A DNA stretch of 64,000 bases. Source: Roseibium alexandrii DFL-11 (GTDB taxonomy: Bacteria > Pseudomonadota > Alphaproteobacteria > Rhizobiales > Stappiaceae). Positions 2,552 to 28,920 of the stretch are shown here, piece after piece. Made by a program: the position numbers and the translations under genes. Each line of letters starts with the position of its first letter. The stretch's first letter is position 1. The stretch is taken from NCBI RefSeq assembly GCF_000158095.2, contig NZ_CM011002.1, positions 2,185,228-2,249,227 on the forward strand. Direction: 5' to 3'. The notes beneath the pieces were generated by a model. The model was given only the letters and a program-made list of their open reading frames with translations, did no database searches and was not told the origin of the DNA.

Positions 2552-3160
2552 CTATCCGTGAACCGCCTTCACCTTGTCAACCGCCACCTTCACCGCCATC
2601 TCGCGTCCGAACATGGGAACGAGCCCTTCGACAATCCCCTTCGCCTCATCGTATCCGGTCACCGTTCCCGTCACGCCGTCAAACTCATCGGCCAGCAATC
2701 CAAACACCGCGCCGATGTCGAAGTGTTTGACTTTGCTCAAATTTCCTTCCGTGATCGCATTCCAGCATTGCTCGACAATCACCCGCATTTGCGCCTTCGG
2801 CACGATGTGCGGCCGGTTTTCCTCATCGAACGACAGCACCTTTTCAACGCCGTCACAAACCACAACTTCACTTGTGGATTGTCCCTTGTACCGGTCAAGC
2901 GCAACGAACAGATAACGCGTACAGAGCGGCCGAGACTTGTCGAATTCATTGCGCGTGCGGCTGTTCTTACGCAGGACGGGAAGCATCGGCAGCCAGGCAA
3001 TCAGCCCGGCCGCAGACAGGCTTTCGGCCGCCCGGCTCTCGCAATTGGGATTGGAGCGCACGACAATCCAGTCTATGCCCTGAACACCGACCAATGAGCG
3101 CAACAAATCATAGTTCACCTTCAAGGCGTCCGTGACGGGGATCCTGTGCAGCTTGCTCAT
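2552..3160 (-). CDS. Phage NusG-like transcription (anti)termination factor
   Basis: A NusG/RfaH-superfamily protein of 202 residues. The N-terminal NGN-like domain (about residues 28-110) begins DWIVVRSNPNCESRA and continues through RYLFVALD; the C-terminal part (about 145-190, IGAVFGLLADEF...GTVTGYDEAKGIVEGLVPMFG) is KOW-like. NusG paralogues bind RNA polymerase and alter pausing or termination. The gene overlaps the replication gene upstream by 4 bp (ATGA) and is the last protein gene of the leftward early operon, where an antiterminator that turns on downstream genes would be expected. The terminator after the tRNA lies downstream. The target is inferred. Confidence 0.8.
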   Translation of the reverse strand: MSKLHRIPVTDALKVNYDLLRSLVGVQGIDWIVVRSNPNCESRAAESLSAAGLIAWLPMLPVLRKNSRTRNEFDKSRPLCTRYLFVALDRYKGQSTSEVVVCDGVEKVLSFDEENRPHIVPKAQMRVIVEQCWNAITEGNLSKVKHFDIGAVFGLLADEFDGVTGTVTGYDEAKGIVEGLVPMFGREMAVKVAVDKVKAVHG

Positions 3161-4467
3161 TCGGCGGCCTCGTTTTTCTGGAGTTCAGCATGGGCATTTT
3201 CAATGCGGGCAAGCGCGGCATTCACCGCCTCGTCCAGGCTTTCATAGTTCTCGAACGGATCTGATGGAGCGGGCATGTAGATCCAATCCGGCAGATCCCG
3301 GTCCGCGCCGAACCAAGGCCAGCCGCGCCGCTCATGGAGCGCCTTCCAGGCGAGATAAAGCGCAGATCCCTTGGCCACCTTGTCGAAGGCCTGCAAGAGT
3401 TCCGCCAATTCCGGATCCGCCGGCGCGCCCTTGTGGCGGTTGCGCGCATCAAGGTGCAGCGTGTTGACCTTTGGCCAGCCATATTCGGCCGTGCGCCGGC
3501 GCCGCTCGGCCTCGGCCATCTCGCCGCCCGCGGCCAGAAGCTGCTGCAAATACCGGGTCGGCGGCGGGAAATGGCCATAGGGCTCGCGCATCAGATCGGC
3601 GAACCGCAATGCGCCCCAGGCCTTGCCGTAAGGCCGCGCCAAGACGCTCGATGCGCCGCTTGACCGCAAAGCCTTTTCGGAGAGCTTTTCCCGCAGGTAG
3701 ACGGCAAAGGTGCAAAACATCTTGCGCCCGCTGGCCTTCACTTCGTGGACATAAACCGCCATCAGGCTGGCCGCCTTCTCCCGATCGGCCTCCGCAAGCG
3801 CAAACCATTCCTTTTCCGCCGCGTCTTCGCTGTCACTGACAAAGGTTGGCCAATCCTTGTGGGCTTTTTTCAAACGCCGTTTCCAGGTGTCCCGGGTCAC
3901 GGTTTCAGCCTCCGGCGCATCCATGGGCTCGTTTTCGGACCTGGCCGCGCACTCACCTGCGCCATCACCCGTCTGGGCACCCCCGCTCGCGCGCGCTCTC
4001 TCACTTACTGGTTCTCTTACTGGTTCCCTTACAGGGTTAGTGTCCAAATTCTGGACACGGGATTGGCCGTTTTTTGGACACGGGATTTCCGCGTTTTTGG
4101 ACACGGGCTCGGCTGAATTCCCGTGTCCAATTTCTGGACATGGCTTTGGCGGTTTTCCGCCGTTTTGGCAGACAGACCGTTTCACCGGAAACCCGTCTTC
4201 AAATGCCAAAAGATAGCGCGTGTTTTCCTGCTGATAGGTCTTTTCGTTGCGCGATTGAACCCGGTGAACAAGCCCTCGCTCCTCCAGTATCGTCAGGTGA
4301 TTGTTGATACTGGACCGGCTCATTTCACAATCTTCGGCAAGCTGCCGCTGACTTGGAAAACAGCCATGATCGGGATTGTGCCGATCCGCCAGATGCCAAA
4401 GCACTATCTTGGTCGCCGGTTTCAAACTGCGCTGCTCTACAGCCCAATTTGTCGCCCTATGGCTCAT
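3157..4467 (-). CDS. Phage replication initiator-like protein, N-terminal winged helix
   Basis: The 436-residue protein starts with a clear winged helix-turn-helix (about residues 15-80: KIVLWHLADRHNPDHGCFPS, QRQLAEDCEMSRSSINNHLT, then a turn and beta wing), as in replication proteins of the lambda O / DnaD-like type. A Pro/Asn-rich linker (about 100-180) follows, encoded by repeated DNA that looks like an origin. The C-terminal half is helical and Trp-rich without ATPase motifs. It overlaps both neighbours by 4 bp in the leftward early operon. Likely role: binding the phage origin and recruiting host helicase; inferred from the domain, position and iterons. Confidence 0.7.
   Translation of the reverse strand: MSHRATNWAVEQRSLKPATKIVLWHLADRHNPDHGCFPSQRQLAEDCEMSRSSINNHLTILEERGLVHRVQSRNEKTYQQENTRYLLAFEDGFPVKRSVCQNGGKPPKPCPEIGHGNSAEPVSKNAEIPCPKNGQSRVQNLDTNPVREPVREPVSERARASGGAQTGDGAGECAARSENEPMDAPEAETVTRDTWKRRLKKAHKDWPTFVSDSEDAAEKEWFALAEADREKAASLMAVYVHEVKASGRKMFCTFAVYLREKLSEKALRSSGASSVLARPYGKAWGALRFADLMREPYGHFPPPTRYLQQLLAAGGEMAEAERRRRTAEYGWPKVNTLHLDARNRHKGAPADPELAELLQAFDKVAKGSALYLAWKALHERRGWPWFGADRDLPDWIYMPAPSDPFENYESLDEAVNAALARIENAHAELQKNEAAE
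4004..4141. repeat. Iteron-like repeats inside the replication gene (candidate phage origin)
   Basis: Six copies of TGGACAC or its complement occur: 4040 (inverted), 4052, 4075, 4098, 4123 (inverted) and 4135 (last base changed). Direct copies at 4052, 4075 and 4098 are exactly 23 bp apart; the outer ones form two dyads, GTGTCCA-5-TGGACAC at 4040-4058 and a near copy at 4123-4141. A tandem TTACTGGTTC repeat lies beside them at about 4006-4027. Iterons inside the initiator gene are known from lambda ori in gene O. Origin function is inferred. Confidence 0.65.
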
Positions 4468-4796
4468 TCAGCGCCCTCCATGGACATGCGCGGCAACGCA
4501 GACACTTCTGCCGGCTGATTGAGTTCGTCAGTTGGAAAATCAATTGCCAGGGTGATGGTCATCACCGGGCCGAAGCGGGCATCGATCAGGCCCTTACGGC
4601 GCAGCTCCATCAGCGCCATCCAGAGCGATATTGCGTTCAGCTCCAGGTGATCGGCCAGCTCGGCAAACACCAGCTGAAACGCACCGCCCACATGGCGCGC
4701 GGCCAGCGCCAGCAGCACCTGCCGCCGCAAACACGGATCCGGCCACACCAGCGCATCCGCCGCGCGCACGGCCCATTCTTCCGCCGCGGCGCTCAT
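4464..4796 (-). CDS. Small winged-helix-like phage protein
   Basis: A 110-residue helical protein with a probable helix-turn-helix: residues about 45-75 read LVFAELADHLELNAISLWMALMELRRKGLI, a pattern of recognition helix plus the start of a wing. It overlaps the replication gene by 4 bp and is translationally coupled in the leftward early operon, so it may help replication or regulate the operon. The plus-strand pentapeptide gene begins just upstream, so the operon transcript must cross that gene in antisense. No exact family recognised. Confidence 0.6.
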   Translation of the reverse strand: MSAAAEEWAVRAADALVWPDPCLRRQVLLALAARHVGGAFQLVFAELADHLELNAISLWMALMELRRKGLIDARFGPVMTITLAIDFPTDELNQPAEVSALPRMSMEGAE

Positions 4797-4799
4797 GAG

Positions 4800-4873
4800 G
4801 CCTCACTTTGCCAGAACGGCTTGAAATTCAGAGATAAATCTGGTTGGTTGCAGCGATTTTGGAGAACAACTTT
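4800..4873 (+). repeat. Shared leader, copy A
   Basis: This 74-bp stretch directly before the pentapeptide gene resembles those at 6281-6355 and 7387-7463. Common blocks in order are GCCT, CCAGAA-GGCTTG, GGTTG followed by GCAG, and a purine-rich ribosome binding region with AACAACT. On the minus strand it encodes a KPFW..EA. tail whose TGA overlaps the ATG of the next minus-strand gene, which suggests a leftover gene end. Confidence 0.6.
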
Positions 4874-6229
4874 ATGAATTTTTTTAATTCGCTTTGGACA
4901 CACATCCTCTGGCTGTGCGTCGCTTCTTTGTTTTTTGGGACTGTTAGCGGGATTGCGGTTTCTGTAATCATCGGCATCGATAACCTCAAAGATGCCTCCG
5001 AGGTGATCAGAAATGCAGTGCTTATTGCAGCGGCTGTAGGTGGTGCCCCTATTCTCATTTGGCGGGCGATCATCGCTGACCAACAGGCAAAGGCTGCCAA
5101 AACGCAAACCGAGTTGACCGAGCGCGGCCAAGACGTCGACCGTCATCAGAAGGGCGCGGAGCTGCTTGTCAGCGATCACCCATATGTCCGAATAGCCGGG
5201 ATCCAAACGCTGCGCGGACTGGCCACTGCAAAGCCGGAGGAAAATTACCTGAATGTTCTGGAGCTTTTCTTTGCTTACATTCGTGAAAAGAACCGCCATT
5301 TGCGGCAAAAAACAGTCAAAAGCCCGAACCACCAGCCCCCATTTATGGATGAGGTCACCTACCAGGCGGTCACGACCATAACGTACCTCAGAAATACGGT
5401 TGATAGGATCGTCAGTTTGGAAGCGGGTTGGGCACCACATCTCAAAAACACTGATTTGCGAAAAGCGGACCTTGAAGGCGCCAATATGTCTGGCGTTGAT
5501 TTTAGCGGAGCCGACCTCAGCGAGGCGAAATTGGAGACCGCCTGCCTTTCCAAGGCACTTTTGTTTAACGGCAAGCTTTCTAAGGCCCACCTCCACAGAG
5601 CCGACATGACCGGGACCTACTTGCATAAGGCTGTGCTTAAGGAGGCAGTCCTTATAGAAGCAATCCTCGCGAACGCCGATTGCAATGAGGCCGATTTTTC
5701 CGATGCTAAGATGGCAAAGGCCGATTTGACCGAGGGCAGCTTTCAAGAAGCAATTTTCAAGAATGCAAAGATGGCGGGGACCGTCTGTACCGGCGCGAAA
5801 TTTGACGATGCAGATCTTAAAGCGGCAAATCTTGTCCGCGCAAATTTCTCGTTTGCGTTCATAACAAACGCAGATCTCTCTTACACAACAGCTCGGCACG
5901 CAAATTTCGGCGAAGCTGATTGTACCGGGTCCGTCCTTACCAGCGCAGACTTCACAGGAGCCAAACTGGCGGGCGTCAACCTCAGAGGCGTCGACCTCAC
6001 TGGTGCCCTTCTCGCCGAGGCCGACCTTACCGGCGCCGACCTCACAAACGCGGACTTGACTGCGGCGGACCTCACTAACGCCAATTTCACCGGTGCAAAT
6101 CTCTCCGGTTCGAACCTGAACCAAATAACCTTGAGTGCAGCCACCAATTTGACCGGTATATGGGCTAATCAAACGAACAAACCAACGAACGTCCGGCCAG
6201 AGGTGGCCGCCGCGATCACTTACGTCTAA
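4874..6229 (+). CDS. Membrane-anchored pentapeptide-repeat protein
   Basis: About 451 residues from the ATG at 4874, chosen over the upstream in-frame start because TTTTGGAGAAC lies just before it. Two hydrophobic segments (about residues 8-30 and 46-63) form a membrane anchor, followed by a short helical region. From about residue 190 to 425 come long runs of A(D/N)LxxA pentapeptides that fold as a right-handed quadrilateral beta helix. Such repeats mediate protein binding; a few mimic DNA. The gene stands against the leftward phage operon, so it is probably an accessory gene expressed in the lysogen. Its function is unknown. Confidence 0.8.
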   Translation: MNFFNSLWTHILWLCVASLFFGTVSGIAVSVIIGIDNLKDASEVIRNAVLIAAAVGGAPILIWRAIIADQQAKAAKTQTELTERGQDVDRHQKGAELLVSDHPYVRIAGIQTLRGLATAKPEENYLNVLELFFAYIREKNRHLRQKTVKSPNHQPPFMDEVTYQAVTTITYLRNTVDRIVSLEAGWAPHLKNTDLRKADLEGANMSGVDFSGADLSEAKLETACLSKALLFNGKLSKAHLHRADMTGTYLHKAVLKEAVLIEAILANADCNEADFSDAKMAKADLTEGSFQEAIFKNAKMAGTVCTGAKFDDADLKAANLVRANFSFAFITNADLSYTTARHANFGEADCTGSVLTSADFTGAKLAGVNLRGVDLTGALLAEADLTGADLTNADLTAADLTNANFTGANLSGSNLNQITLSAATNLTGIWANQTNKPTNVRPEVAAAITYV

Positions 6230-6280
6230 GTGAAAGCTGTCAACCTTAACTGCAGAACAGATGGGCCAATAAGTTCTGAC

Positions 6281-6355
6281 GCCTTTTTCCCACCGAAAGG
6301 CTTGAAATCCATGCCGGGCACCTGCCAGGTTGTGCAGAGACAAAGGAACAACTGA
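6281..6355 (+). repeat. Shared leader, copy B
   Basis: Second copy (75 bp) of the leader at 4800-4873, with GCCTTTTTC, GAAAGGCTTGAAAT, AGGTTGTGCAG and AAAGGAACAACTGA. It ends exactly at the GTG start of the next plus-strand membrane gene and supplies its ribosome binding site. Confidence 0.6.
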
Positions 6356-7087
6356 GTGATAGATCGCGACACCAAACCGGTAATTGTCATCGTCTGCTCG
6401 ACCGCTGCAATTGTTTGTATGCTGCTCCTGCAAGTGTCCGAGGGAAGTTTCTCCATTTCGCTCGACAAGAGCTGCGTTGCCGCCGACTTCAATTGCTTTC
6501 TCTACAGTTGGCAAACACTGATTGCCGGGCTGCTGGCACTTGCCGGTGCCAGCGTGACCGTCTGGCAGATCCGAAAACAGATTGCACTTCAGACGGCGCT
6601 GGAAAACAAGCGCGACGTCGTTCAAACGATATATGAATTGAAGTGGTGTGGGGCCGCTGATAGAGCCTTGAAAATACTGCTTGATCCGCTCAAAACTCAC
6701 CGATCCCATCTTAGCCGACAACCACCAAACTTCGAAGCTCTGAGGCCAGTATGGTTTCATCCGGTAGTGTTCCCAGAAACTATAGACCCGGACGTTCACA
6801 CTTGGATGGAGCTGGTGAACAACTCCATTTCTAGTTATAATGAGTGGTTGGAACTCGTTGAGGGACCGGGTCCAGACATAGGAGAAATGACGCAATCGCT
6901 CAAAACAACCGTCGAACAGATAGAAAAGCTCAGTTCCAGAATAGATGAGGAATTGATGGAGCCGCGCTTTGAGGTGCTCCTGAAAGCTGGCTGGACCCAA
7001 AAACGAATTGCCGATCTGCTGCGTTATGAACTTTCGGAAACCGATGAAGAAAGTCATAATTGCCCCTCCACGCCTTCGTCTGAATAA
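6356..7087 (+). CDS. Two-helix membrane protein, WQTLIAG family (paralogue 1)
   Basis: A 243-residue protein with a GTG start preceded by AAAGGAAC. TM1 spans about residues 8-27 and TM2 about 51-70, the latter containing WQTLIAGLLALAGASVTV. The loop between them holds a cysteine pair spaced C-X6-C. The cytoplasmic part is helical, with IDPDVH near residue 145 and EELMEPRF...LLKAGW near 205. The protein encoded at 7464 shares all of these landmarks, so they are full-length paralogues. The last 34 bp overlap the end of the convergent DUF4326 gene. No function is known; membrane sensing or superinfection exclusion is speculation. Confidence 0.7.
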   Translation: MIDRDTKPVIVIVCSTAAIVCMLLLQVSEGSFSISLDKSCVAADFNCFLYSWQTLIAGLLALAGASVTVWQIRKQIALQTALENKRDVVQTIYELKWCGAADRALKILLDPLKTHRSHLSRQPPNFEALRPVWFHPVVFPETIDPDVHTWMELVNNSISSYNEWLELVEGPGPDIGEMTQSLKTTVEQIEKLSSRIDEELMEPRFEVLLKAGWTQKRIADLLRYELSETDEESHNCPSTPSSE

Positions 7088-7383
7088 GGCTTTAGCTGCG
7101 CGGCATATTTCAGCAAAACATCGCCATGGCAGGGCGCATCCAATGCGCACCAGCAGGCAACGTCCTTGCCGATGAGCTCATGAACGGGAAGCGTTGGAAT
7201 CGTGAAAAACTCGAAACACTGGCACGCGTCTTCCGCGTCCATTTTCTGGCCCGGCATGCCGGGCAGATCCGCGCCGGCCTTGAACGGATTGCCCCATTTG
7301 GTGCTGCGGTCGATTTTCACCGCGCCTGGTGCGTCACACCGCCAAGGCCGGTCCCGCCGCATTTGAATTCGCTTCGGGCTCAT
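7054..7383 (-). CDS. DUF4326 family protein
   Basis: A 109-residue phage protein that matches DUF4326 by its signatures KIDRSTKWGNPF (about residues 23-34) and ACWCALDAPCHGDVLLK (about 77-93), with the cysteines and histidine those proteins share. DUF4326 proteins are common in phages and are of unknown function; the conserved Cys/His suggest metal or nucleotide binding. It belongs to the leftward early operon but is cut off from its operon neighbours on both sides by plus-strand inserts, and its tail overlaps the convergent membrane gene. Confidence 0.8.
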   Translation of the reverse strand: MSPKRIQMRRDRPWRCDAPGAVKIDRSTKWGNPFKAGADLPGMPGQKMDAEDACQCFEFFTIPTLPVHELIGKDVACWCALDAPCHGDVLLKYAAQLKPYSDEGVEGQL

Positions 7384-7386
7384 GCC

Positions 7387-7463
7387 GCCTCCTTCAGCCA
7401 GAAAGGCTTGCTCTGACGGCCGAAACCTGCTCGGTTGCAGGAAGCAAAGGGACCAACTGAGTT
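7387..7463 (+). repeat. Shared leader, copy C
   Basis: Third copy (77 bp), closest to copy A at its left end (GCCTCCTTCAGCCAGAAAGGCTTG) and to copy B at its right end (CAAAGGGACCAACTGAGT). It ends at the ATG of the second WQTLIAG paralogue. On the minus strand it encodes a KPFWLKEAA tail whose stop overlaps the DUF4326 start codon. Confidence 0.6.
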
Positions 7464-8156
7464 ATGAGCAACGGAAACAGGCGCGACTGGATACGCGCCG
7501 GAATTGTTGGCGGCGCCTTGCTTTTGATCACAATTGTGATCGACACCGGCGGCATCCCTTATGTCAGCGAAGCCGTTTGCAGGGAACCAGACGGTCGAAG
7601 CCTTTGGTGCTATGCCTACGCTTGGCAAACCTTGATCGCTGGCATAGTCGCATTTACTGGCGCGGCTATTACTGTCCGCCAAATGAGACATAGCCAGCGA
7701 AAAAAGGGAGTTTTGCGTGCAGTACAGGCAATAGGTCATGCCCAAGCGACTATTCGAAGCCTCCGCAGCAATCGAGCGAGCATAGAGGAAGTGTATCAAC
7801 AGATAGGGGCCAACAGAACGCCCATACCTCGAGGCCATCTGGAATTCTTGTCGTGGGAAGGTACAAGTGTCCCACAAGATGTTGATCCCTATTTCCATGA
7901 CATTGTTAGAGAAACTTGGGTGGTAATACAGACAGTCTTGAGACTTATAAAACAGGTTCAAACACCGCAAATACTCACATCTGAAGATGCAACTATGATT
8001 GAAGGCGCCCTTCGAAAAATCGACGAGACTATAGCGCAGCTTGAGAATGAGTTTATCGAGCCAATAGCAATGGACTTGCGGAGAGTCGGCTTTGTAATCT
8101 GGAAAGATACAAACGGTCTTTATCGATATGATAGGACCAGATTGCCCAGTCTTTAA
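7464..8156 (+). CDS. Two-helix membrane protein, WQTLIAG family (paralogue 2)
   Basis: A 230-residue paralogue of the protein at 6356-7087. TM1 is at about residues 10-30 and TM2 at about 54-72 with WQTLIAGIVAFTGAAITV; the extracytoplasmic loop has a C-X9-C pair. The cytoplasmic helical domain keeps VDPYFH near residue 134 and a terminal ENEFIEPIAMDLRRVGF motif. The ATG follows AAAGGGACC in leader copy C. The two copies have diverged considerably, so this is not a recent tandem duplication. Accessory phage gene of unknown role. Confidence 0.7.
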   Translation: MSNGNRRDWIRAGIVGGALLLITIVIDTGGIPYVSEAVCREPDGRSLWCYAYAWQTLIAGIVAFTGAAITVRQMRHSQRKKGVLRAVQAIGHAQATIRSLRSNRASIEEVYQQIGANRTPIPRGHLEFLSWEGTSVPQDVDPYFHDIVRETWVVIQTVLRLIKQVQTPQILTSEDATMIEGALRKIDETIAQLENEFIEPIAMDLRRVGFVIWKDTNGLYRYDRTRLPSL

Positions 8157-9899: not shown

Positions 9900-10251
9900 G
9901 AGCGGGCTCCTGTGGTTCAGAGGTTTGGGAAAGGCCGGGACCATCGCGCCGGTTGACTTCCGCGCGGAAGAACCGGCCAGCGGTTTCAAACAAGGCCGCT
10001 TCGGCAAGAAACTGAGCGCGCAAGGCGTCCAGCGTTTTTCTGTCGCCACCGGAGGCACTCCGCACGGAGGACGCGGTCAGGGAGATAGACGACAGGACTT
10101 TCTTGCGCGCCGCGTCGAACAGGAAGTCGGACAGACACCGCAGCGTCCCCTCGCCCATCTCAAGGACCTCCAGCGTGTCGAGCCCGGCGAGATAGCGGTC
10201 AATGCAGGCGGGATCGCGCTGCCAGTCTGCAAGCGTTGGAGGGGTTTTCAT
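9886..10251 (-). CDS. Hypothetical phage protein
   Basis: A 121-residue, mostly helical protein beginning MKTPPTLADWQRDPACIDRY; the start at 10251 was chosen because the upstream extension is not protein-like. It overlaps the GcrA-like gene by 14 bp. The helical region (RYLAGLDTLEVLEMGEGTLR...) and a polar, Pro-containing C terminus give no family. The plus-strand coiled-coil gene starts 69 bp upstream, so this gene too is separated from its operon by an insert. Confidence 0.5.
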   Translation of the reverse strand: MKTPPTLADWQRDPACIDRYLAGLDTLEVLEMGEGTLRCLSDFLFDAARKKVLSSISLTASSVRSASGGDRKTLDALRAQFLAEAALFETAGRFFRAEVNRRDGPGLSQTSEPQEPAHESG

Positions 10252-10319
10252 GACACCGCCCCCTCGACTTTTGCGCGAAGGTGTTTTTTGATGCAGGTGC
10301 AATTTTTTGGAGAATTGGC

Positions 10320-10937
10320 GTGGAATGGATCTTGTTGGCGGCTTGCCTCTATTTCGGCTGGCGATTTTTTTTCCGCAAAAAGAGCAACCAAACACAGGGT
10401 GCTGAACAGCACATCGCAAACACCGCGCACGACACCAGGATTCAAGGCTTTGCCGTGGAGACCCAAGCTCGGTCGGCCGAACTCACCCACTGCGTGACCA
10501 AAGAGGACTACGAAAGCCTGGTCGCCCCTTTCAAAGACTTGAAAAAGAACATCCGGAAAACGCATCAAAAGGCGAAGAGATTCCTTGCCGCAAATGATGA
10601 AAACACGAAAATCACCAAAGCGAAGGCAGAGAAGCTGCTGACCCTTCTCGCAGAAATAGAAGGGGCAAGCGAACAGGCGGCCAAAGCCCATACTGATATA
10701 GAGAATCTGGACATCAACAACGGCGTCTACTTTTCCGACGCCCTTGATCGTCAACGTGACAAGTTTGCAGAGTCTTTTGATACCCTTTACGGCGATATTG
10801 AAGAAACCAGCTCCGAAATCTTCACTAATGCGTTCATCCACTTTGACGAAACAGGCCAGCTTTCGCTCTACACACAGGGAAAGAGCGACGAGGAACGTGT
10901 CATACATGCGTTGGAAGCTATCTTGCGCGACAGGTAA
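10320..10937 (+). CDS. Membrane-anchored coiled-coil protein
   Basis: A 205-residue protein from GTG 10320, chosen because TTTTGGAGAA lies just before it. A single N-terminal helix (about residues 3-20, WILLAACLYFGWRFFF) is followed by basic residues, so the body is cytoplasmic. Residues about 55-125 are heptad-like (KDLKKNIRKTHQKAKRF..., EKLLTLLAEIEGASEQAAKAH), pointing to a coiled coil. It ends 3 bp from the end of the convergent CII-like gene and fits exactly between two minus-strand operon genes. Probably another accessory gene; its leader resembles copy A only near the ribosome binding site. Confidence 0.6.
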   Translation: MEWILLAACLYFGWRFFFRKKSNQTQGAEQHIANTAHDTRIQGFAVETQARSAELTHCVTKEDYESLVAPFKDLKKNIRKTHQKAKRFLAANDENTKITKAKAEKLLTLLAEIEGASEQAAKAHTDIENLDINNGVYFSDALDRQRDKFAESFDTLYGDIEETSSEIFTNAFIHFDETGQLSLYTQGKSDEERVIHALEAILRDR

Positions 10938-11736: not shown

Positions 11737-11877
11737 GGGAGTTATCCGCTCATGACAATTCCAAATCGTCAGGCAGATATTGCATCAGATTTCGATTTTA
11801 GCAATATCCATAATGGAAATTATTGTGCGGAAATAGCAACAGACAGGTTGCTAGAAAGCGTGCATTATTCGCATGCT
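11737..11877. promoter_or_regulatory. Divergent switch region between Cro-like and repressor genes
   Basis: Three dyads are visible: GATATTGC-17-GCAATATC (11776-11808), TCCAT-A-ATGGA (11807-11817), and TAGCAAC-6-GTTGCTA (11834-11853). The middle dyad in minus orientation gives ATTTCCATTATGGA (11820 to 11807), identical over 14 bases to the operator at 13836-13849. This is where the repressor and Cro-like protein should compete. Confidence 0.65.
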
Positions 11878-27612: not shown

Positions 27613-28920
27613 ATGAGCGCTTCAAAGCCGAAGATCCTGATTGCCACGCTCGGAACCCGCGGCGACGTCCAGCCCTATGTGGCGCTTGCCGGTGAACTGG
27701 TGCGTCTTGGTGCCGACGTCGTTGTGGCGACGGGCCGCGGCTTTGACACGATGATCGGCAAGGTGGGCGCACAGCCGCGCGCGGTTCCAATTGATTTTGA
27801 AGCCCTTTTGGGTGACCCGGTGACGCGCGAGGCGATGTTCACCTTCCGCGGCAAGATCAAGGTCGCCCGCACCACCATGGAAGATCAGAAGAAGGTCGTC
27901 CGGTGTTTGTGGAGGATCGGTCTGGAAGAAAAACCGGATCTGATCCTCTTCAATCTCAAGGCCACGGTGATGACACTGGTGGCCCGGCGGCTGAATGTCC
28001 CGGCCTTGCCGACCGCGCTTCAACCGGTCGTGACGTCCACAGGGGATTTTCCGGTCTCCCTGTTTGGATTGCCCGCACTCGGTAAACTGGGAAACCGTCT
28101 CAGTTATCTGGCTGCCCGCAAACTTATGGCGCTGGGTCTGTCTCCCATGTTGAAACCGCTGCGCGCCGAAGCAACCGCGGAATTCGAACACCCCGGCGAA
28201 ATGATCGACGGGCATATGCCGGATGGCTCCAAAGCGCTGTGCCTGCAAGGGTTTTCATCTGCGCTGGTGCCGAGACCGAAAGACTGGCCTGAAACGTCCT
28301 GGCTGAGCGGCTACTGGTTCATGCGGCCCGCAAACACCTACATGCCCGACCGCGAGCTGATGCAGTTTCTGGAGGACGGCCCGGCGCCGGTCTATATCGG
28401 CTTTGGCTCCATGCCGAGCCGGAACCCGGAAGATCTGACCGGGCTGATCATGCGCTCACTCACCCAGACCGGACTGAGGGCCATTTTGGCGCGCGGCTGG
28501 GGCGGCCTCACCGGGCACACCTTGCCGGAGGTCTTGAAGGACAAGGTGTTTTTGATCGACAAGGCCCCGCACAGCTGGCTGTTTCCAAAATGCAGCAGCA
28601 TCATTCACCATGGCGGTGCCGGAACAACCCATGAAGCCTTGCGCTGGGGCAAACCCTCCCTTGTCTGCCCGGTTTTTGCCGATCAGCCTTTCTGGGGGCA
28701 ACGCGTTCATGCCGCTGGCGCTGGTCCGGCGCCGATTAGCCAAAAGAAACTCACGACAGATTTGCTGGTGAAGGCGCTCTATGCGCTGGATGCTCCGGCC
28801 TACGCAATGGGTGCCAAGGCCGCCGCCGGCATCATGGCGCTCGAGCCTGGAGCGGAGGGCGCGGCAAAGGAAATCATGTCCCGTATTCCTGCCGTTCGTG
28901 CATCGGCAAAAAGCGCCTGA
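27613..28920 (+). CDS. UGT-type glycosyltransferase (GT1/GT28-like)
   Basis: A 435-residue GT-B enzyme. The N-terminal acceptor domain begins ILIATLGTRGDVQPYVALAG; the donor domain has IHHGGAGTTHEALRWGKPSL and PVFADQPFWGQRVHAAGAGP, the signature for UDP-sugar binding seen in sterol and macrolide glycosyltransferases. Likely substrates are lipids or small hydrophobic molecules. Start taken at MSASKPKILIA because the upstream extension lacks a family match. Single gene. Confidence 0.88.
   Translation: MSASKPKILIATLGTRGDVQPYVALAGELVRLGADVVVATGRGFDTMIGKVGAQPRAVPIDFEALLGDPVTREAMFTFRGKIKVARTTMEDQKKVVRCLWRIGLEEKPDLILFNLKATVMTLVARRLNVPALPTALQPVVTSTGDFPVSLFGLPALGKLGNRLSYLAARKLMALGLSPMLKPLRAEATAEFEHPGEMIDGHMPDGSKALCLQGFSSALVPRPKDWPETSWLSGYWFMRPANTYMPDRELMQFLEDGPAPVYIGFGSMPSRNPEDLTGLIMRSLTQTGLRAILARGWGGLTGHTLPEVLKDKVFLIDKAPHSWLFPKCSSIIHHGGAGTTHEALRWGKPSLVCPVFADQPFWGQRVHAAGAGPAPISQKKLTTDLLVKALYALDAPAYAMGAKAAAGIMALEPGAEGAAKEIMSRIPAVRASAKSA

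Follow-up and report, generated by a model that had tools for sequence, protein, structure and literature searches.

A short leader sequence that precedes three antisense membrane-protein genes in a prophage of Roseibium alexandrii DFL-11 recurs in front of different genes in ten phages. The prophage lies in the stretch of 64,000 nucleotides (nt) analyzed here, which we call the window (contig NZ_CM011002.1, positions 2,185,228 to 2,249,227) and whose own numbering is used below. The early operon of the prophage is on the minus strand; the three genes (4874-6229, 6356-7087 and 7464-8156) lie interspersed among its genes, on the plus strand. We think it likely, judging from comparative sequence analysis, that phage accessory genes (morons) of one family, nested in antisense orientation within the early replication operon, have this leader as their 5' end. 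By these comparisons, the leader recurs in 10 phages before different proteins, the boundaries of exchange fall at the leader or the start codon, and one family of leader plus gene is found in different slots.

Copies of the leader in the window and in related phages

The window contains three plus-strand copies of the leader: copy A (4797-4873, core 4820-4873), copy B (6277-6355, core 6301-6355, with one extra base) and copy C (7384-7463, core 7407-7463). The first-pass annotation, made from the window sequence alone, had described them as repeats of 74-77 bp at 4800-4873, 6281-6355 and 7387-7463, and these are indeed flush with the start codons ATG 4874, GTG 6356 and ATG 7464. The repeat is real, but the common core is shorter, with 54-57 nt from CTTG to the start codon; the ~20 nt upstream of the core are common only to the window copies and to copies a and b of the sister prophage L177 (loci are labelled L and genomes G). 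Copy A contains a -35-like CTTGAAA (4820-4826), separated by 17 nt from a -10-like TTGGTT (4844-4849), and a Shine-Dalgarno (SD)-like GGAG (4861-4864). The -10-like and SD-like sequences are CAGGTT (6326-6331) and AGGA (6344-6347) in copy B, and TCGGTT (7431-7436) and AAGGGA (7447-7452) in copy C.

Smith-Waterman scores between the leaders were 26 (A/B), 26 (A/C) and 31 (B/C), and dinucleotide shuffles matched these scores in 3, 0 and 1 of 2000 cases, respectively, which places the similarity above that of shuffled controls. When real DNA was used as the control, at most 2 of the 5038 other 75-mers of the window reached the leader scores in each comparison. For any single pair of leaders, significance is present but not overwhelming. 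Because the separation from real 75-mers of the window was the weaker one, independent copies were sought outside the window, and it is these copies, identified by sequence, that form the stronger evidence for the leader.

Homologues of the DUF4326 early-operon protein, present in 12 of 87 genomes of the family and in 27 viral loci, led to related operons. Altogether, 40 loci were gathered via searches with DUF4326, the small helix-turn-helix (HTH) gene of the operon, the cassette proteins and the leader, and they form a biased sample, in which DUF4326 is all that many loci have in common with the window and to which L207 was added for a cassette-protein match only. The leader pattern itself led to L041, and L046 and L177 were found by leader or protein searches first and by DUF4326 second; L271 and L272 are the same phage, and L261 and L262 come from one genome project. 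Screening of the 1,105,876 positions of the 40 loci with a leader matrix, for which 13 of the 16 full copies were training copies, gave 18 sites above 13 bits, corresponding to 16 full and two partial leaders. The full copies belong to 10 phages and are all antisense to early-operon genes of their own locus. The partial leaders (L031, position 8452; L206, position 6960) contain the promoter-like half only and are located ahead of DUF6161 genes.

Three full copies, L046 10732, L268 and L247, were absent from both the 40-locus matrix and R1, a sequence-only model of 13 aligned copies, and all have the start codon at +54. L046 10732 and L268 score 24.5 and 26.8 bits, respectively; L247 obtained 18.4 bits with the matrix but just 12.4 bits (E 0.067) with R1. 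The two complete genes among these three encode two-transmembrane (2TM) proteins. In a held-out test, in which matrices were built with one phage group left out at a time and in which L046 10732 served as a training copy for the other groups, 13 of the 14 copies could be ranked and all ranked between 1 and 5 in their own locus; in L031 and L206, only their partial leaders ranked above the full leaders. Over the whole 64 kb, on both strands, copy C came third and copy A fifth. Copy B could not be ranked because of its extra base; one base was removed from it, for register, in the held-out and 40-locus matrices.

The sequence-only model detected 9 sites at E<1e-3 in the 87 genomes of the family, all of them training copies located within these prophages, and in 397 genomes drawn from the order it detected nothing at E<1e-3 beyond the window's own three, plus one partial match at E 0.0045. 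Strict filters were applied in these searches, and only the best 64 (87 genomes) or best 14 (397 genomes) first-look candidates per genome were scored; weak copies could therefore be missed, and the results set a limit rather than an exclusion. Matches at E<=1 occurred in 66 of the 87 genomes, as expected at that limit. The match in G067 (E 0.0027) is the partial leader of L031, and model matches at E>=0.0045 (G037, G030 and others among the 87 genomes; G407 among the 397) were taken as noise.

Pattern scans gave a similar picture. Three of the 10 stretches obtained in the stricter scan of viral contigs are leaders (L041, L043, L046), and the other seven have no open reading frame (ORF) of this kind behind them. 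The scan of genome contigs gave four stretches, of which L054, L055 and L056 are prophages already in the set and L053 (Pseudomonas) encodes none of the operon proteins of the window. Of the six pattern matches in the 87 genomes of the family, two (L047 and L051) proved not to be leaders. A loose scan of viral contigs, with at least 120 stretches, was left out of the leader count, as was the MIK-type gene of G058 (L185; L033 region), which occupies the same slot and whose upstream sequence lacks the 3' half of the leader. A direct search of the phage collection with the 3.7-kb region gave no match, and the L046 leader as query gave only short pieces in 9 records (best E 0.6). In the open-licence literature of PubMed Central (PMC), we found no description of the leader or of these prophage genes. 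Searching for the leader and listing what follows each copy thus returned different proteins behind the 16 full copies, and the leader occurs in phages other than this one.

Cassette proteins and their exchange between prophages

The gene behind copy A (4874-6229, plus strand) encodes a protein of 451 residues with an N-terminal two-helix anchor followed by pentapeptide repeats (Pfam PF00805). Copy B precedes WQT_B (6356-7087, plus strand), a two-helix membrane protein of 243 residues whose gene overlaps the DUF4326 gene at its 3' end by 34 nt, and copy C precedes WQT_C (7464-8156, plus strand), a membrane protein of 230 residues. The structure model of WQT_C (mean predicted local distance difference test score 70.9) contains a helix at 4-27, a long helix at 47-117 and helices at 142-163 and 173-207. 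At least one predicted membrane (hydrophobic) segment above the threshold is present in all 15 complete leader genes, versus 1 of 12 operon genes.

BLASTP linked 15 of the 16 cassette proteins, the sole exception being the truncated protein of L046. According to a hand count, 24 of the 34 matching pairs are confined to the first 91 residues of both proteins; the remaining ones include a few full-length relatives and pentapeptide tails. When compared with shuffles that preserve local composition, the N-terminal parts were related at p<=0.01 in 40 of 99 pairs and the C-terminal parts in 4 of 99; these are the 105 pairs of the 15 complete proteins minus 6 with long matches, and without this removal the numbers are 45 and 9 of 105. 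The conserved unit, as far as the sequences tell, is promoter-like element, leader and anchor, and it is the C-terminal domain (pentapeptide repeats, coiled coil and others) that varies.

The gene behind copy A had been called unrelated to the two other window genes, and BLASTP did not reveal a relation between the pentapeptide protein and WQT_C or WQT_B. That wording is too strong, however, because over its N-terminal 30 residues the protein shares 43% identity with the 2TM cassette protein of L247 (E 2e-4); by the shuffle test, its anchor matches those of L247, L268 and L206. The anchor of the pentapeptide gene is thus probably related to the anchors of other cassettes, and the window genes probably combine a related membrane anchor with unrelated C-terminal domains. 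Since the shared unit extends past the leader into the N-terminal anchor, kinship between the cassettes is part of the explanation. L177:5054-5878 forms a bridge between both gene types of the window: it is chimeric, with a WQ-type (WQDL) two-helix anchor and a short pentapeptide tail.

The comparison between the window and L177 also locates the boundary of exchange. The two prophages are closely related, with 90% identity for the small HTH-like protein and 92% for the DUF4326 protein. In bins of 50 nt, their identity is 0.80-1.00 upstream of the start of the first cassette and 0.27-0.58, the background level, downstream of it. The first slot contains the pentapeptide gene in the window and, in L177, the gene with the WQDL-type anchor and short pentapeptide tail. 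In the window, the WQT_C family, leader included, is located beside the DUF4326 start, whereas in L177 it flanks DUF4326 on the opposite side, and the similarity between both versions begins at the relic of a reverse start codon and spans leader and gene. Identity among WQT_C and its homologues is 74-80% over the first 80 residues and 44-48% over the rest. Synonymous divergence (dS) between WQT_C and its L177 counterpart rises after codon 80 from 0.86 to saturation, as expected if the 5' part has been exchanged or homogenised.

Other pairs of loci behave similarly. L027 and L031 share a block of 410 bp (86% identity) whose end lies 2 nt beyond the -10-like hexamer, and no relation is seen between the proteins encoded behind it. 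By eye, this block (L027:5059-5467; L031, oriented, 4130-4530), which lies between the small operon gene and the leader, contains several hairpin-like inverted repeats. The leaders of L031 and L206 are related (0.78 over the last 50 nt), and the 2TM genes behind them are different. A second family also occupies different slots: the DUF6161 protein of L031 is encoded between the small HTH gene and DUF4326, and in L046 a protein that resembles the N-terminal part of this one (30% over 81 residues, E 1e-7) and is cut by the contig end is encoded beyond DUF4326. In L027, a gene at 6496-7527 overlaps the start of DUF4326 (6176-6499) by 4 nt, at the junction that WQT_C occupies in the window. The first-pass proposal of a modular slot in the early operon, with different ORFs behind one leader, is largely borne out by the copies in the 10 phages, and its proposal that the leader is a recombination point agrees with the boundaries at leader or start codon in window/L177 and L027/L031.

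These data also bear on ordinary paralogy, according to which one ancestral 2TM gene was duplicated together with its promoter and inherited vertically, and the C-termini diverged fast in an arms race without any exchange of cassettes. The related anchors of many cassettes (40 of the 99 N-terminal pairs) would fit this explanation, as would the additional upstream sequence that the three window leaders share with L177 a and b. Nevertheless, we consider it improbable: window and L177 lose their identity abruptly at a start codon next to a conserved flank, the same family occupies different slots, and the jump in dS after codon 80 means that selection on protein sequence alone is insufficient.

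Anatomy and possible nature of the leader

The leader consists of a promoter-like CTTGnnn-N17-CAAGTT followed by GGGGGACAACTG-N-ATG, with 54 nt from CTTG up to the start and without gaps in most copies. The hexamer CAAGTT is replaced in some copies by CAGGTT, CAAGAT, TTGGTT or TCGGTT, and 3' of it there are ~12 nt, a purine-rich SD sequence and then ACAACTG-N-start. Over this span, 13 copies from 8 loci can be aligned without gaps, except for one base in window copy B and three bases before the start in window copy C and L177b. The distance between CTTG and the hexamer is 17 nt in all of 17 copies but window copy B (18 nt); L247, which was read separately, has ATTG. This -35 sequence and its spacing agree with the Sinorhizobium meliloti sigma-70 consensus CTTGAC-N17-CTATAT as given in PMC2873474. 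The conserved CTTG-N17-hexamer is compatible with the earlier suggestion that the leader acts as a promoter, but an E. coli-type sigma-70 scan was negative. On the 5' side of CTTG, many copies contain an apparent reverse-strand start codon and SD sequence of the adjacent operon gene. This reverse start codon persists in L177b, L031m and L206 despite the presence of a plus-strand non-operon gene on that side, and the 5' end of copy B looks like a degraded version of such a start and SD sequence.

In several copies, CTTG and CAAG form part of an imperfect dyad (8/8 in L031m; 7/8 in L206 and L031w). Together with the result that, among the candidates scored in the 87 genomes, there was no match outside these prophages at E<1e-3, this would be in line with the leader being a regulatory site, bound by a phage repressor or a host factor that governs an accessory regulon, with recombination at the site being incidental. 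We doubt this explanation, because the dyad is missing from copies A and C and from L177a and L177b (1-2 of 8 matches), conservation of the leader runs on to the start codon, and, by eye, there is no likeness to the palindrome at 11790-11815 beside the presumed repressor gene.

Convergence, meaning that any good alphaproteobacterial promoter and ribosome site would look alike, would account for the fit of CTTG-N17 to the S. meliloti consensus, but it is very unlikely given the fixed register, which includes the non-SD sequence ACAACTG, and given that, among the best first-look candidates scored at E<1e-3, there was nothing outside these prophages in the 87 genomes and nothing but the window's own copies in the 397.

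The first-pass annotation had also interpreted copies A and C, read on the minus strand, as the remnant end of an operon gene now lost (KPFW..EA.). The reading frame is indeed open in both copies, its stop overlaps the next start, and copy a of L177 reads KPFWQSEAV (copy b reads KPFGGAGAA). However, a search for this gene end in 17 sequences, L177 not among them, found it only in A and C plus an unrelated plus-strand match at 27800, the operon gene of L027 that overlaps DUF4326 ends in FPEVRS, and the ~12 nt concerned are missing from the leaders of other phages and from copy c of L177. The segment looks like the SD sequence and start codon with which the neighbouring operon gene begins on the reverse strand; no relative with such a gene end was found in those sequences, and we regard a lost gene as hardly credible.

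Probable accessory genes nested in the early operon

The explanation of the leader as the 5' end of a moron family can be placed in the context of the prophage. The region studied is 100% identical to part of a viral contig of 62.6 kb in IMG/VR, and the host phages are a group of temperate phages of Roseibium/Labrenzia-type bacteria. On the minus strand, the early operon includes a small gene with a sub-threshold winged-helix match (4464-4796), whose start codon abuts leader A, an adjoining gene for the phage replication initiation protein (3157-4467) and, distally, a gene for a NusG-like transcription antiterminator (2552-3160); the start codon of the DUF4326 gene (7054-7383, minus strand) abuts leader C. 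Just past the NusG-like gene, the prophage contains a minus-strand tRNA-Met (cat) gene (2316-2393). A stretch of ~70 bp downstream of the same gene (2414-2483) is conserved in L027 and L031, lies also inside longer matches to L030 and L033, and may belong to an antitermination or processing site.

In the mechanism we propose, the leader (promoter-like element, fixed ~12-nt stretch, SD sequence and start-proximal motif) and the next ~90 codons, encoding the two-helix anchor, would act as a conserved 5' module to which varying C-terminal domains are joined. Homologous recombination at this module and at the flanking operon genes would bring in new cassettes. The leader promoter may be active during lysogeny, when the early operon is repressed. 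The 3' ends of 11 measured cassettes lie between 34 nt inside and 63 nt short of the next operon gene; in view of their orientation, this packing and the lack of an excess of terminators, full-length early transcription would cross the cassettes in antisense. Firing of the early operon, with its NusG-like antiterminator, could then shut the cassettes off. Their products would be lysogenic-conversion proteins of the inner membrane, with superinfection exclusion or abortive-type anti-phage defence as the most likely role. Fast-varying small membrane proteins of prophages are often exclusion factors, and superinfection exclusion is therefore our leading guess.

Several results weigh against this interpretation. 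Full leaders are lacking in 30 of the 40 loci. In the held-out test, the non-leader window sites 1699 (plus) and 52700 (minus) outscored copy C, 56948 (plus) equalled copy A, and the window leaders are among the most diverged members of the family. The E. coli-type sigma-70 scan missed the window hexamers TTGGTT, CAGGTT and TCGGTT, which are all poor. Terminator-like sites are present at chance level (12 found, 12.7 expected). Fold searches with the WQT_C model gave no match at E<=0.001, and in profile searches the membrane proteins matched defence families only weakly or below threshold. Finally, antisense genes without the leader exist, namely 862-1851 and 10281-10937 in the window and the pentapeptide genes of L027 and L031.

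Among the defence families, readings as SLATT (SLATT_1 for L041, E 0.0016, below the Pfam cut-off; RTasSLATT for WQT_C, 0.019), KwaA (L177a, E 0.0052) and ZorA (the DUF6161 protein of L031, E 0.0063) were rejected as too weak, and no curated family points to a function of the membrane proteins scanned. The window genes at 862-1851 and 10281-10937, both on the plus strand and antisense to the operon, also encode predicted membrane segments, and the former has a sub-threshold SLATT_6 match. By eye, GCACGCTCTGGTTTTAT occurs before the pentapeptide genes of L027 (3730-3830) and L031 (oriented, 2810-2890), and CTCGACTTTTGCG before other antisense genes in the window (10250-10320) and in L028 (oriented, 10800-10880), suggesting further leader types in the same phage group.

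The comparisons with known systems made here draw on the relevant passages of the cited papers. An independently transcribed gene antisense to lytic genes has been placed in a region characteristic of moron loci (PMC7067206). Like the prophage morons described there, the cassettes are additional genes located among those of the phage, in antisense to its lytic genes, with their own promoter-like element and variable between close relatives; unlike them, many cassettes in several slots are preceded by one conserved, promoter-like 54-nt leader and a recurrent anchor, and no terminator was found. The start-associated sequences (SAS) and extended SAS (ESAS) of Cluster K mycobacteriophages resemble the leader in being conserved elements that directly precede the starts of some non-structural genes, which belong to different families, and in being uncommon outside their own phage group (PMC3203893). 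The Cluster K SAS is a 13-bp GGGATAGGAGCCC, and about half of the sites have 17-bp inverted repeats (PMC3203893). In contrast, the leader is longer and promoter-like, lacks the GGGATAGGAGCCC consensus and precedes antisense membrane-protein genes. Within the window, the 13-bp sequence has 2 matches with 2 mismatches (1.3 expected by chance), neither of them at a leader. As for 17-bp imperfect inverted repeats, none of the 17 copies has more than an 8+8 dyad, which one copy has in full and two more have with 7/8 matches; longer arms were not sought.

The Tha/Ith noncontiguous operon of Staphylococcus aureus phage 80alpha contains a nested antisense gene, and a lysogeny/lysis switch that avoids self-immunity has been modelled for it (PMC11087260). 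Since the nesting of genes in antisense can thus make expression in lysogeny and in lysis mutually exclusive (PMC11087260), the cassettes may, by analogy, be expressed in lysogeny and silenced on induction. By their sequence anatomy, the cassettes fit the arrangement of Tha/Ith, in which a gene transcribed from its own promoter lies inside an oppositely oriented phage operon. A difference is that in Tha/Ith the cI operon contains the defence gene, and its inhibitor is encoded by the nested antisense gene (PMC11087260), whereas here the nested genes are the candidate effectors. As in the defence hotspots of P2 and P4 phages, variable cassettes occupy fixed places of the phage genome, but those are diverse systems next to cos, and here one architecture is found behind a shared leader in the replication operon (PMC9122126). 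A conserved N-terminus with exchangeable C-terminal domains is also known from polymorphic toxins (PMC3482391). Unlike these (PMC3482391), the cassettes have a phage-borne membrane anchor, and nothing recognisable as a toxin domain, an immunity gene or a secretion part was seen; no toxin domain in the proteins scanned was above the cut-off, and partner (immunity) genes were not searched systematically.

We tentatively extend the moron reading to a phage-borne polymorphic system, in which the 5' module of promoter, leader and two-helix anchor would be combined by recombination with C-terminal sensor or effector domains in several antisense slots and be silenced automatically by early transcription. 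Morons, start-associated sequences and recombination at boundaries are each of a known kind; what is new is their combination, with a shared start-proximal module at the joints and exchange visible between sister prophages. The leader can serve as a sequence tag for membrane accessory proteins of an uncharacterised class, which are candidates for superinfection exclusion, and the antisense nesting suggests a testable lysogeny switch. If the polymorphic system exists, the prophage would arm its lysogen without harm to its own lytic cycle, and the 54-nt leader would serve as an address tag for finding exclusion proteins.

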